Source of the DNA: an uncultured Asticcacaulis sp.
Lineage (GTDB): Bacteria; Pseudomonadota; Alphaproteobacteria; Caulobacterales; Caulobacteraceae
Assembly (NCBI GenBank): GCA_936940865.1
Contig: CAKZJB010000162.1
Coordinates: 1 to 37,841 of the forward strand
Direction of reading: 5' to 3'
DNA: 37,841 bases
Notes under the pieces: generated by a model
What the model was told of the DNA's origin: nothing
Seen by the model: the letters and a program-made list of their open reading frames with translations, nothing else
Database searches by the model: none
Part shown: positions 17,790-22,805 of the stretch, in pieces
How the letters are laid out: the number at the start of each line of letters is the position of its first letter
Position numbering within the stretch: the stretch's first letter is position 1
Translations under genes and position numbers: made by a program

Positions 17790-18260
17790 TCAAAGGGGAA
17801 GAGCGCTTTCGCCTTCCGGCCGCCGCGGCCGTTGCTTTGCGGACACCGATTTTATGACCAGCCGCCCAGGCGCCGTCCCGTTAAGTGGGACCTTGGCCGT
17901 CGTCACTGCCTGGTCGATCAGGGCGGAGATGTAAGGATTATCGAGATCGTCGGCCGATGCCAGCGTGATATGCCGCACGACTTTGCCGGACCACTTCAAC
18001 CGCTTGTCCGGATCATCGAGCGTGTGGCCCTGCAGGAAGAAAAAGTTCACCCAGCGCGGATAGAGCGCGACCGACAGGATGGCCTGCGACGCCTTTTCCG
18101 ACGGCGCGAAGCCGACGGCGAGGGCGTTGTAATTGTCGTAGACCAGAACCACGGCTTCGGGCAGGCGCGCACGCAACCGGGCAATGGCGTCCCGCCCGAT
18201 GGCCGCGATTTCGGGCCTATAGCGTTCGAGAAAGGTTTCGAGCTGGGCCTCCGGGTCCAC
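17790..18260 (-). CDS. DUF1801 domain protein
   Basis: A 156-residue small alpha/beta protein of the DUF1801 (YdhG-like) family. The N-terminal helix is MDPEAQLETFLERYRPEIAAI-like, the beta-core is EAVVLVYDNYNALAVGFAPS, and YPRWVNFFFLQGHTLDDPDKRLKWSGKVVRHI is the family hallmark (about residues 67-98). Function unknown. It starts with GTG three bases after the stop of the iron-sulfur fusion gene, so the two are co-transcribed and probably translationally coupled. The C-terminal 20 residues are basic and likely disordered. Confidence 0.82.
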   Translation of the reverse strand: MDPEAQLETFLERYRPEIAAIGRDAIARLRARLPEAVVLVYDNYNALAVGFAPSEKASQAILSVALYPRWVNFFFLQGHTLDDPDKRLKWSGKVVRHITLASADDLDNPYISALIDQAVTTAKVPLNGTAPGRLVIKSVSAKQRPRRPEGESALPL

Positions 18261-18263
18261 GTT

Positions 18264-20255
18264 TCAGACCCCGTCCGCCTCGAAGCCGGCTGCGCGATGG
18301 CTACCGTCGCAGAACGGCTTGCTTTTCGAGTGCCCGCAGCGGCACAGCACCGCGCCTTCGACGCGTTTGACGACGCGGCCCGTGCCGGCGCAAATTTCGA
18401 GATTTCCCGTAATGCGCAGGGGCCCATTACGCTGCGGATCGACCGCCAGCGGACCGTTGCGCACCTCCAGCGGATCGAGACTGATCGTGTCGGGCTCGCC
18501 CGAGGCGGCAAAGCCGGCGTCGTGGTGCGAACCGTCGCAATAAGGCTTGTTCTTCGACTGGCCGCAGCGGCAGAAGGTGGCGCGATAACCGATGAATTCG
18601 CCGGCGACCGTCATCGGCGCATTGATGGCGTTGGGGCCGTTTTCCCGGATGCGCATCATGTTGACTTCCGGCGCCGTCTCATCGGCCCGCGTCTTGCCGC
18701 GATAGGCGATTGCGCCCGACGGACAGTCGTGGGCGATGCGCACCAGCAGATCAGCATCGCTTTCATCCGGGTGCAGCCAAGGGCCGGCGACATTGGCGAT
18801 AAAGGTCTTCGGCGCACCGGTGACGCAGAAGCGCGAGTGGATACAGCGCTTCATATCGACCACAAGGGTGAGGTCCTGGCCTTCGACGATTTCCGGCCCC
18901 GAATTGGAGCCTTCGGTGCTGGCTGCGGCCTCGGTCTTGAGCGAATCGGACTTCGCCGGTGCTTCGGGTCGTTGATCGGGTGTGTCCACTGCGCCCTCCT
19001 GAACGTGAAATCTTTCGAGCGCCTGGCCCAGATTGACGTGAATGGTCTCGAGACTCGATACCGCCCGGGCGACCCGTGGCGTCTGCGCCAATGCCTTGCC
19101 GCCTTCGGCCAGGTCGGCGATCCGCCCCCTCAGCACCTCGAAAACGGCCGGACAGGATTTGGGCGCGACCAGCGTGCGCAGGGTCGCGAAGCTCAGGCCT
19201 GCATTGCCGTCGTCGCTGTCATTGGCCTTGAGACGCGCCAGTTCGCGCGCCAGCGGATCGAGCGCCATCATCATGTCGATGGCCGTATTGATCATCAGCC
19301 GCTTTTCGATGACGTCGGTGGCGGCGAAACCCTGCACCAGAAAACGCAGCATGTGGTTATAGACTGCGTTGCCAAGATCCAGCACCTGGCGCGCGTCCTC
19401 GCGCTCGATCCATACCCGGTCTTCCGGGTTCTGGATCGGCTTGCGCATGACCGGGTTCGACGCCACCGGATGCGCCGGCGTGAAGCCCGGATCGCGTTCA
19501 AGGATCGCGTCGTACGATTCGCGGATCTTGACGAAGCGCGCATAGTGGCAGCCGGCGCTGTTGTTCGAAGCCCCCTCGCCCTGTTCGACGATCGTCTCGA
19601 TGGCGCGGCACGCCGAATTCAGATCGGTGATACGCACCAGCCCGGTGAGCGTCAGGATGTTCGGGCAGACCTGCAATTTCGGGTCGCCGCAGAACAGGGC
19701 GTCTTCGCCCATTTCAACCGACAACTGCTTCAGCGCATCCTCGACCGAGCGATAAAGATGGCCGACCGTGCGATAGTCCTGCGCCGAGGGCATGAGCCGG
19801 ATGCCGCGAAGGGCGCGCGAATAGACCGGACGCTGGTCGAAGCCACGGCCGTCCGGCTCGTCGCTGCCTTCGGGCCGTTCGAGATAGATGAAGTGCTGCA
19901 AGGTATCGCGGTTGAACGGCGCCAGCCGCACCTGGAGGTCGGCCGGATGATAGCCGTCGGCGACCGGAAAGTTCGGCCGGTGCAGATGCGCCACACCGCC
20001 CAGCGCATTCATCAGGTTCGAGACCAGCGTCAGGTGCGTCATCTCGTCGATGGCGACGTCGACCATGGCGCGCTGCCAGCCGCGGATTTCCTTTTGCAGC
20101 TCGGGATCGATACCGTCATCGGGCTCGGTCTTCAGCGACCAGGCGGCATAGAGATAGCAGCACATCAGATTGTGCTCGATCTCGGCCGCCTCGCTCAGCG
20201 TGTCGAGCAGTTGTTCGCGGTGGCGGATGATGATCGGCGGTTCTTCAGCGGCCAT
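18264..20255 (-). CDS. ferritin-like / ferredoxin-like / double CDGSH iron-sulfur fusion protein
   Basis: A 663-residue multi-domain protein. Residues 1-340 are ferritin-like, of the VioB/iminophenyl-pyruvate dimer synthase type, with candidate iron ligands E25, E27, H28, E71 and H74 and the family stretch TIVEQGEG (221-228). Residues 420-458 are a Ser/Glu-rich linker. Residues 460-520 form a divergent mono-cluster ferredoxin domain with C471, C477 and C511 (CPSGAIAY). Two CDGSH [2Fe-2S] motifs follow: C562, C564, C573, H577 and C638, C640, C649, H653. No signal peptide, so cytoplasmic. GGAG lies upstream of the start. A redox or oxygenase role on an unknown substrate is my inference. Confidence 0.88.
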   Translation of the reverse strand: MAAEEPPIIIRHREQLLDTLSEAAEIEHNLMCCYLYAAWSLKTEPDDGIDPELQKEIRGWQRAMVDVAIDEMTHLTLVSNLMNALGGVAHLHRPNFPVADGYHPADLQVRLAPFNRDTLQHFIYLERPEGSDEPDGRGFDQRPVYSRALRGIRLMPSAQDYRTVGHLYRSVEDALKQLSVEMGEDALFCGDPKLQVCPNILTLTGLVRITDLNSACRAIETIVEQGEGASNNSAGCHYARFVKIRESYDAILERDPGFTPAHPVASNPVMRKPIQNPEDRVWIEREDARQVLDLGNAVYNHMLRFLVQGFAATDVIEKRLMINTAIDMMMALDPLARELARLKANDSDDGNAGLSFATLRTLVAPKSCPAVFEVLRGRIADLAEGGKALAQTPRVARAVSSLETIHVNLGQALERFHVQEGAVDTPDQRPEAPAKSDSLKTEAAASTEGSNSGPEIVEGQDLTLVVDMKRCIHSRFCVTGAPKTFIANVAGPWLHPDESDADLLVRIAHDCPSGAIAYRGKTRADETAPEVNMMRIRENGPNAINAPMTVAGEFIGYRATFCRCGQSKNKPYCDGSHHDAGFAASGEPDTISLDPLEVRNGPLAVDPQRNGPLRITGNLEICAGTGRVVKRVEGAVLCRCGHSKSKPFCDGSHRAAGFEADGV

Positions 20256-20775: not shown

Positions 20776-22008
20776 ATGAAGCGTACCCTGAAAGACAAAC
20801 TGGCCATCCTGTCCGACGCGGCGAAATACGACGCCAGTTGCGCGTCGTCGGGCACGACGAACCGTAATTCGGTCAAGTCGGGCGGACTGGGCTCGACCGA
20901 AGGCTCGGGCATCTGCCACGCCTATGCGCCGGACGGGCGGTGCATTTCGCTGCTCAAGATCCTGATGACCAATTTTTGCATCTACGACTGCGCCTACTGC
21001 ATCAACCGGTCGTCGTCCAATGTCGAGCGGGCCCGTTTCACGCCTGAGGAAGTGGTCTGGCTGACGCTCGAATTCTATCGCCGCAACTATATCGAAGGCC
21101 TGTTCCTGTCGTCGGGCATCATCCGCAATTCCGACTATACGATGGAGCAGATGGTACGCATCGCCCGGAACTTACGCGTCGAGCATAATTTCCAGGGCTA
21201 TATCCACCTCAAGACCATCCCAGAGGCCTCGGCGCACCTTATCGAACAGGCCGGACTGTTCGCCGACCGGCTGTCGATCAATATCGAGCTGCCGACCGAT
21301 GCGGGCGTCGAAAAGTTCGCGCCGCAGAAGCACCCGGCCAATATCCGACGGTCGATGGGCGAGTTGAAAAGCCATATCGACGCTGCCTCGGAGCCGACCC
21401 TGCGCACGAAGCAACGCAAACGTTTCGCCCCCGCCGGCCAGAGCACGCAAATGATCATCGGTGCCGATACGGCCACCGACGCCACCATCCTCGGCACCAG
21501 CGCCGGGCTTTATGGCAAATACCAGCTCAGGCGCGTCTACTATTCTGCCTTTTCGCCCATTCCGGACGCCTCGTCGCTATTGCCGCCGGCCAAGCCGCCC
21601 CTGATGCGCGAACACCGTCTTTATCAGGCCGACTGGCTCTACCGTTTCTACGGTTTCGGAATCGAGGAGATCGTCGCGGCGAGGCCGGACGGTATGCTCG
21701 ATCTCGAGGTCGATCCGAAACTGGCCTGGGCGCTCGGCAACCGCGACCGCTTTCCGGTCGATATCAATACGGCCGAGCGCGAGATGCTGCTGCGCGTGCC
21801 GGGCTTCGGCGTGCGCACGGTCGATGCGCTGATTGCCGGCCGCGTCCATACGCGCATGGGGCTCGATGATCTGAAGCGGCTCAAGGTGTCGCTGAAAAAG
21901 GTCAAGCCGTTCATCGTCGCCAACGGCTGGACGCCGCTGAAGGTGCTCGACCGCGCCGACCTGCGCACCCTGTTCGCGCCTGAGCCGCGGCAACTGGTGC
22001 TGCTATGA
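20776..22008 (+). CDS. putative DNA modification/repair radical SAM protein
   Basis: A 410-residue radical SAM enzyme of the family annotated as putative DNA modification/repair (TIGR03916-like). The SAM-cluster motif is C68-IYD-C72-AY-C75, within MTNFCIYDCAYCINR. Additional N-terminal cysteines (C22, C47, C56) could bind another cluster or metal. A helix-hairpin-helix DNA-binding element lies at about 327-360 (PVDINTAEREMLLRVPGFGVRTVDALIAGR). The gene overlaps the next by ATGA; the two are a conserved pair. The chemistry is unproven. The HhH supports action on DNA. Confidence 0.9.
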   Translation: MKRTLKDKLAILSDAAKYDASCASSGTTNRNSVKSGGLGSTEGSGICHAYAPDGRCISLLKILMTNFCIYDCAYCINRSSSNVERARFTPEEVVWLTLEFYRRNYIEGLFLSSGIIRNSDYTMEQMVRIARNLRVEHNFQGYIHLKTIPEASAHLIEQAGLFADRLSINIELPTDAGVEKFAPQKHPANIRRSMGELKSHIDAASEPTLRTKQRKRFAPAGQSTQMIIGADTATDATILGTSAGLYGKYQLRRVYYSAFSPIPDASSLLPPAKPPLMREHRLYQADWLYRFYGFGIEEIVAARPDGMLDLEVDPKLAWALGNRDRFPVDINTAEREMLLRVPGFGVRTVDALIAGRVHTRMGLDDLKRLKVSLKKVKPFIVANGWTPLKVLDRADLRTLFAPEPRQLVLL

Positions 22009-22805
22009 GAACGATACGTTTGCGTGGCCGTGGTGATTTCGAGGAGTGGCGCTTGGCGGCAAGGGGCCTGTTGGCGGACGGCGTCCCCCCCGAAGCCATT
22101 GCCTGGACGACGGAGGATGGCGGCGACCTCTTTGGGGGGAGCGAAACGCCATCTCCAGCGCCCGCCGCCTTCTCCGTCCCGAAGGCTTTCGTTGACCTAA
22201 CGCAGGACATTATCTGCCATAGCGATCCGGCGCGGTTCGCCCTGGCCTATCGCCTGCTGTGGCGGCTGCAATCCGAAAAGCATCTGTTCGAGATCGCCTC
22301 CGACACGGACGTTACGAGGGCGCGCTTGATGGCCAAGTCGGTGCATCGCGACGATCACAAGATGCGCGCCTTTGTCCGTTTCAAGGAGATCGGAAGCAAA
22401 GGCCCAAGACGGCGCTTTATGGCGTGGTTCGAGCCCGACCACTTCATCGTCGCCCGCGCCGCCCCGTTTTTCCAGCGCCGCTTTACCGACATGGACTGGA
22501 TCATCGCCACGCCGAAAGGCACGGCGGCATGGGACGGCGAGCACCTGACAACCCGTGAAGAGCTCGCCGAAAATCCAGATCTCCACGACGATGCCGACAG
22601 TCTGTGGCGCACCTATTACTGCCATATTTTCAACCCGGCGCGGCTCAAGGTGAGGGCCATGCAAAGCCAGATGCCGAAAAAATACTGGAAAAACCTGCCA
22701 GAAGCGGAGCTTATTCCAGACCTGATCGCGGAGGCCGAAACCCGAACCGGACAAATGATCGCTGGGCGCAATCGCGATCAAGTGCCGGCCAGGCGGCCGC
22801 GTTAG
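22005..22805 (+). CDS. DUF4130 / TIGR03915-type putative DNA metabolism protein
   Basis: A 266-residue partner of the upstream radical SAM protein, sharing an ATGA overlap. Family hallmarks are KSVHRDDHKMRAFVRFKEI (about 108-126), YLAWFEPDHFIVARAAPFFQRRFTDMDW-like core sequence and HDDADSLWRTYYCHIFNPARLKVRAMQSQMPKKYWKNLPEA (about 198-238). In many bacteria this domain is fused to a uracil-DNA glycosylase domain; here the protein ends soon after the DUF4130 core, so the glycosylase half is missing. Predicted DNA repair role by association; no biochemical function is established. Confidence 0.87.
   Translation: MRTIRLRGRGDFEEWRLAARGLLADGVPPEAIAWTTEDGGDLFGGSETPSPAPAAFSVPKAFVDLTQDIICHSDPARFALAYRLLWRLQSEKHLFEIASDTDVTRARLMAKSVHRDDHKMRAFVRFKEIGSKGPRRRFMAWFEPDHFIVARAAPFFQRRFTDMDWIIATPKGTAAWDGEHLTTREELAENPDLHDDADSLWRTYYCHIFNPARLKVRAMQSQMPKKYWKNLPEAELIPDLIAEAETRTGQMIAGRNRDQVPARRPR

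Follow-up and report, generated by a model that had tools for sequence, protein, structure and literature searches.

A ferritin-like domain joined to a ferredoxin and two CDGSH domains, and a probable second origin of the pairing in other bacteria, suggest a self-powered redox enzyme

What does a bacterial protein do that carries a ferritin-like domain, a mono-cluster ferredoxin domain and two CDGSH domains in a single chain? The question is raised by a gene on a 37,841-nucleotide stretch of DNA from an uncultured Asticcacaulis sp. (contig CAKZJB010000162.1, assembly GCA_936940865.1), which was analysed at its full length and is called the window here. A 2018 survey mentions that CDGSH occurs together with Fer4_19 and with a Ferritin-like domain in bacteria, and in the passages available gives no function for the proteins combining CDGSH and Ferritin-like domains (PMC5859297). 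A characterised Ferritin-like/CDGSH protein is not found among the matches listed from the open PMC literature. In this study, we describe the window protein as a member of an uncharacterised family which, judged by its sequence, has an unusual combination of cofactors. We revise its set of candidate metal ligands, follow its relatives across bacteria and weigh what the combination may be for.

The features of the locus are collected in Table 1. The domain inventory given in an earlier note on this DNA is confirmed by Pfam. PF12902 matches residues 20-245 with 150.5 bits against a curated cut-off of 22.3, Fer4_19 matches residues 458-519 with 48.8 bits against 24, and zf-CDGSH matches as two stretches with 97 against 29.5. 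The residue numbers of the note all agree with the translation of the ORF. Its VioB-type label for the N-terminal domain holds as far as kinship through PF12902 is concerned. Against the VioB profile TIGR04492, however, the window protein scores 77.5 bits where the equivalog cut-off is 1250, over profile positions 598-928 only; it is therefore a PF12902 relative and not VioB. In the whole-chain AlphaFold2 model, built from 48 sequences (mean pLDDT 88.2), the sole stretch below 50 comprises residues 422-451, between the helical N-terminal part and the Fe-S part. Predicted alone, the N-module reached a mean pLDDT of 89.7 and a pTM of 0.91. The window protein and 47 full-length homologues form an alignment of 48 rows, in which 139 positions are conserved to at least 95%.

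Table 1. Positions in the window of the 663-aa gene, its parts and the adjoining gene
Feature	Position	Strand	Basis
663-aa gene: PF12902 ferritin-like, Fer4_19, CDGSH, CDGSH	18264..20255	-	ORF with ATG start; Pfam; homologue alignment
N-terminal helical module, residues 1-420; core E27, E71, H74, E126, Y168, E227, H237	18996..20255	-	AlphaFold2; conservation
Low-confidence linker, residues 422-451; the break of split versions falls within or close to it	18903..18992	-	pLDDT <50; split genes
Fer4_19 three-Cys mono-cluster domain (C471, C477, C511)	18699..18884	-	Pfam; conservation
First CDGSH motif region (C562, C564, C573, H577)	18522..18605	-	Pfam; conservation
Second CDGSH domain (C638, C640, C649, H653)	18294..18428	-	Pfam; conservation
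DUF1801-like gene, 3 bp downstream of the 663-aa gene	17790..18260	-	Pfam, 25.0 bits, below the cut-off of 27.2

Concerning the Fe-S module, every cysteine and histidine named in Table 1 for the Fer4_19 and CDGSH sites is present in 48/48 full-length rows, and the pattern CxC-x8-C-x3-H occurs twice in each of the 48. The site in Fer4_19, a domain which we take to be the same as DUF1271, reads C-[I/V]-H-[A/S]-R-x-C...C-P, with H473 and R475 beside it in 48/48 rows. At position 474, 31 of the 48 rows have Ala and the other 17 have Ser. Since Ala or Ser thus replaces the middle Cys of CxxCxxC, the three Cys probably hold a [3Fe-4S] cluster or a site-differentiated [4Fe-4S] cluster completed by a ligand other than Cys. 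The two CDGSH motifs, judged by their 3Cys-1His ligands, would hold [2Fe-2S] clusters. The host genome encodes no other Fer4_19 and no other CDGSH protein above the curated cut-offs, and rubrerythrin and manganese catalase are without a match in it at 1e-10.

A C-terminal module of this order is known from the type 7 CISDs, defined in 2011 as DUF1271 with one or two CDGSH motifs; the window protein has the order of their subtype DCC, DUF1271 followed by two CDGSH motifs, as given in the available passages of PMC3174974. Unlike the window protein, subtype DCC is without an N-terminal ferritin-like module, and the word ferritin is absent from the main text of that paper (PMC3174974). A CDGSH gene is also named in a figure legend on AlkB regions in a paper on the diiron protein AlkB (PMC11854999, available part).

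Which residues of the N-module may bind metal? E27, H28, C32, E71, H74, H121, E126, Y168 and E227 are invariant in the 48 full-length rows and H237 is kept in 47/48; position 25 is Glu in 43/48 and Ala in 5/48. Across 28 PF12902 proteins of several partner classes, E27, E71 and H74 are kept in every row having the position, E126, Y168 and H237 in 28/28 and E227 in 27/28. Since L129 as called is without its N-terminus, n is 27 at the first positions of this wider set, where H28 is His in 17/27 and E25 is Glu in 15/27. C32 and H121 occur almost exclusively in the Fe-S clade of Pseudomonadota and Myxococcota, the Streptomyces protein having neither. Of the diiron ligands proposed in the earlier note, E27, E71 and H74 stand as part of the core, but E25 and H28 vary family-wide and were dropped. 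E126, Y168, E227 and H237, absent from its list, are further conserved candidates. The conserved Glu/His core comprises four Glu and two His as candidate metal ligands, of which three had been named before. Four Glu and two His are also the usual make-up of ferritin-like dimetal sites.

The best match to the N-module by both fold and profile is CC_0557 of Caulobacter (PDB 3hl1), the sole PDB entry with a Foldseek E value below 0.001. It is a 317-residue chain with a structure at 1.95 A, whose profile match covers the N-module only, with 17-18% identity in the Foldseek alignment, and the seven core positions agree in the profile alignment. Two weak matches to the PF12902 profile, at positions 6-87 and 277-335, come from the 306-aa 'bacterioferritin' of PDB 9viw (chain A); such a double match may point to ferritin-like halves repeated within the N-module. 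PF02915 (rubrerythrin) and PF05067 (manganese catalase) are without a Pfam match in the window protein at E 0.001. By hhalign, rubrerythrin gave a probability of 0.4%, with only 7 sequences, chosen from 14 loci, in the profile. Manganese catalase gave 15% over 46 columns, E27, E71 and H74 lying opposite Glu, Glu and His of the catalases in a profile of only 3 sequences chosen from 8 loci. A family link to either was rejected as too weak to bear an argument.

Relatives of the VioB/RebD type share the PF12902 domain. It has identical core residues in the two VioB-type rows examined, H28 being Leu in both. Unlike the window protein, this pair has a large extra N-terminal region, and the one that was scanned, L094, has no Fe-S domain by Pfam. 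VioB is described in the available part of PMC9705886 as having catalase activity with haem b and no structure, 3hl1 being the best template. A haem cofactor would suit a protein in which the ferritin-like domain is without redox-active metal and provides binding or a scaffold for an Fe-S redox carrier. We hold this for very improbable, as six carboxylate and His positions of the dimetal-bundle kind are conserved across 28 divergent proteins.

Scanning one genome per species yielded 334 related stretches, of which the best 80, making up 78 distinct loci, were analysed. The full chain, defined by a best alignment starting at residue 20 or before and ending at residue 655 or later, is present in 47/78 loci with 44-72% identity; its hosts, by record titles and tree families, are Alpha-, Beta- and Gammaproteobacteria and Myxococcota. 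Another 27/78 loci align through the Fer4_19-CDGSH2 module alone, L055 among them being truncated at a contig end, and the C-module therefore also serves elsewhere. The other four are L039 and L040, both at contig ends, L045, which is split, and L047, full-length with a broken alignment. In the C-module tree, which left out L018, L032 and L039, L035 is tagged 'alone' by the length filter despite its full length, and the start of L055 coincides with a contig end. PF12902-type genes are rare, being found in 12/398 genomes of the phylum and 9/385 of the class in even samples, and the fused form in 2 genomes of each sample (G000 with G448 or G452). Among 61 genomes of relatives the window protein was matched in 9, of which 8 belong to the 25 genomes of the same genus, host included; one of the 8, G012, is matched through its N-part alone, and no Fe-S module was matched there.

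Both modules also occur as separate, adjacent genes. With starts as called, the two genes overlap by 29 bp in G018 and by 4 bp in G055, and are separated by 24 bp in L045, a MAG whose split could be an error. The split form of G018 groups among the fused Asticcacaulis rows in the C-module tree. A further arrangement is found in Actinomycetota. In Streptomyces NBC_01483, a PF12902 gene overlaps a CDGSH-Fer4_19-CDGSH gene by 4 bp (starts as called); both parts are adjacent in three further Streptomyces plasmid records, and Nonomuraea has the same parts in a single 581-aa chain. The order is thus Ferritin-CDGSH-Fer4_19-CDGSH, as against Ferritin-Fer4_19-CDGSH2 in the window protein. The Fer4_19 scores of the Streptomyces and Nonomuraea proteins, 22.6 and 19.6, lie below the Pfam cut-off of 24, and the label combines these weak matches with position; the Streptomyces protein also shares the pattern C-I-H-A-x-x-C...C-P-S-G. 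PLSDB tables list no gene at these sites (L140:2997-4742 in Nonomuraea, L095:5938-7736 in Streptomyces). A second PF12902 gene of Nonomuraea has no adjoining Fe-S module.

A tree built from 45 N-modules places the two Fe-S classes on separate branches. A single clade for both was rejected with p-AU 2.9e-5 (45 rows, 21 Fe-S against 24), in a test made after the pairwise identities had been seen and with long branches flagged. Because the classes are on different branches and one clade is rejected, Fe-S domains were most likely linked to PF12902 on two occasions, in different orders.

The earlier note had described the gene as coupled to DUF1801. The DUF1801-like gene proved to be a local neighbour only: by tblastn at 1e-3, the DUF1801, CutA, beta-lactamase, radical SAM and DUF4130 neighbours in the window have no match in 159 other loci, where the C-module, as a positive control, gave 99 hits. 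Operon logic was therefore not built on them. Within the window, CutA lies upstream of the 663-aa gene, and a divergent radical-SAM/DUF4130 pair (20776-22805; TIGR03916, TIGR03915) is named for putative DNA modification/repair. Across the fused loci no reductase or other neighbour is conserved, as counted with a codon-usage gene caller; L064 and L070, with no gene called at the match, are absent from this survey. The CutA neighbour could be taken to favour iron or Fe-S handling (ferroxidase, cluster storage or transfer), in which the CDGSH domains would give clusters rather than electrons, and CDGSH domains are reported to transfer electrons as well as clusters (PMC5859297, available passages). 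This appears improbable, since CutA is conserved in 0/159 other loci and the identified partners of PF12902 relatives in the sampled loci are oxidases or MNIO enzymes.

In 7/47 full-length loci (L008, L010, L011, L013, L014, L017 and L076), the gene is immediately preceded, in the same orientation, by an outer-membrane efflux gene; in L013, whose efflux identities were checked with Pfam and NCBIfam, the two are 8 bp apart. An RND permease and adaptor are also present in 6 of these 7, L010 being cut by a contig end. As all 7 loci are Sphingomonadales, the pairing is possibly one event. At L073:218-8633, a Fer4_19-CDGSH2 gene that lacks the ferritin-like part is likewise preceded by efflux genes, namely two RND permease-like ones and an outer-membrane one, an arrangement shared with the full-length gene in Sphingomonadales. 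A phage role and a defence role were rejected, with no match in 50,697 phage records and 0 families among PADLOC models at E 0.001. The efflux genes would fit a substrate-specific diiron oxygenase or oxidase which acts on a small molecule, draws on the Fe-S module as its dedicated donor and has its product exported in some hosts. PF12902 relatives are indeed found in oxidase or biosynthetic settings (VioB-type with FAD oxidoreductases, GMC, LodA). Nevertheless we regard this as rather unlikely, given the restriction of the efflux loci to one order and the absence of a conserved biosynthetic partner around the fused genes.

What accompanies PF12902 where the Fe-S module is missing? The phylum and class samples contain 21 distinct PF12902 loci, the two contig-end pieces of the host counted as one protein. 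Three are Fe-S fused, five have a GMC oxidoreductase neighbour (L113 assigned by its likeness to L112), three a LodA neighbour and four an MNIO (PF05114) neighbour; four have a Tat-like signal (L130, L131, L133 and L134, labelled by eye) and two have unassigned or other neighbours (L115 and L118). A GMC, LodA or MNIO gene hence adjoins 12/18 sampled non-Fe-S loci (8 GMC/LodA, 4 MNIO). Additional GMC cases occur on Rhizobium, Agrobacterium and Methylobacterium plasmids, and VioB-type PF12902 genes adjoin FAD oxidoreductases. In fungi, ferritin-like (PF12902) genes are reported near lodA/lodB-like genes (PMC4417212, available part). The 648-aa gene beside L115 was considered as a VioB-like N-part and rejected, having no match to the N-part of L094 and a blank Pfam result. 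The host itself carries, at the contig ends C69/C100 (L121:6957-7413 and L136:8-3363), a second and apparently broken PF12902 protein followed by MNIO (PF05114) and DUF2063; the PF12902-MNIO pairing is also seen at L119, L132 and L135. A 2025 paper on the MNIO landscape, which deals with MNIO partners, makes no use of the word ferritin in its main text (PMC12452194).

Near the fused genes these partner classes were not detected. With 15 seeds, 0 of 270 neighbours within three genes of the 47 loci matched at 1e-4, and the same seeds recovered their own classes in non-Fe-S loci as a positive control. The nearest miss was a GMC seed against a neighbour in L006 (5e-4, 28% over 102 residues). This correlation fits an Fe-S module that replaces an oxidase partner of PF12902. 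Partnership with an oxidase or an Fe-S module is no general rule for PF12902, because 4/18 non-Fe-S loci are Tat-like and the neighbours of 2/18 are unassigned. Besides these two classes, the N-module of G012 and the second Nonomuraea gene, both without matched Fe-S, count against such a replacement.

Rubrerythrin joins a ferritin-like dimetal site and a fused rubredoxin iron electron donor in one chain and reduces O2 or peroxide. It serves here as a working analogy only, since it belongs to another family, has rubredoxin where the window protein does not and shows no profile similarity. Along these lines, our main reading, to which we give a probability of roughly 45%, is a self-contained, probably cytosolic dimetal oxidoreductase whose Fe-S module would feed a dimetal site for O2 or peroxide reduction. 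The PF12902 bundle would hold a site of four Glu and two His (E27, E71, H74, E126, E227 and H237), probably diiron or dimanganese. The C-terminal module, whose ligands are seen, would hold one three-Cys cluster and two CDGSH [2Fe-2S] clusters. Its electrons would cross the flexible linker to the dimetal site for the reduction of O2 or peroxide, much as the fused rubredoxin centre serves rubrerythrin. Peroxide or O2 reduction, or an oxidation that helps in handling stress, would be the most likely role, rather than iron storage.

For a dimetal oxidoreductase we count the invariant Fe-S ligands, the Glu/His core of 28 proteins and its agreement with 3hl1, and the predicted helical module and linker. 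Further points are the linkage on two branches, the adjacency of the split genes, the oxidase and MNIO partners near non-Fe-S loci with none near fused ones, and a host without other Fer4_19 or CDGSH and without a rubrerythrin or manganese catalase match. Against it we count the hhalign values (rubrerythrin 0.4%, manganese catalase 15%), the Tat-like loci and those with unassigned neighbours, G012, the C-module-only loci, the lack of a conserved reductase neighbour and the sub-cut-off Fer4_19 scores of Actinomycetota. The idea of the earlier note, an electron-transfer chain feeding the ferritin-like site, gains support at the level of sequence, and the second Fe-S linkage of Actinomycetota, with its different order, strengthens it. 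This probable second origin in other bacteria suggests a self-powered redox enzyme.

The domain combination itself was already noted in part in the earlier literature. The ligand set and the second, differently ordered linkage are absent from the available passages of PMC5859297. New here are this second linkage, the revised ligand set and the partner-class pattern, with no earlier report among the matches listed from the open PMC literature.

With both modules in one chain, the window protein is a test case for PF12902 chemistry and for CDGSH function in bacteria, and the same chain lets a CDGSH-driven dimetal site be tested. PF12902 recurs beside oxidases (FAD oxidoreductases of VioB-type clusters, GMC, LodA) and MNIO enzymes, and the Actinomycetota form offers an independent comparison. 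We tentatively propose that the CDGSH clusters may be dedicated to relaying electrons to a ferritin-like dimetal enzyme, an arrangement evolved twice with different domain orders and powering PF12902 chemistry. If this is true, the Fe-S module would supply reducing power to a domain that elsewhere often lies beside an oxidase or an MNIO enzyme.
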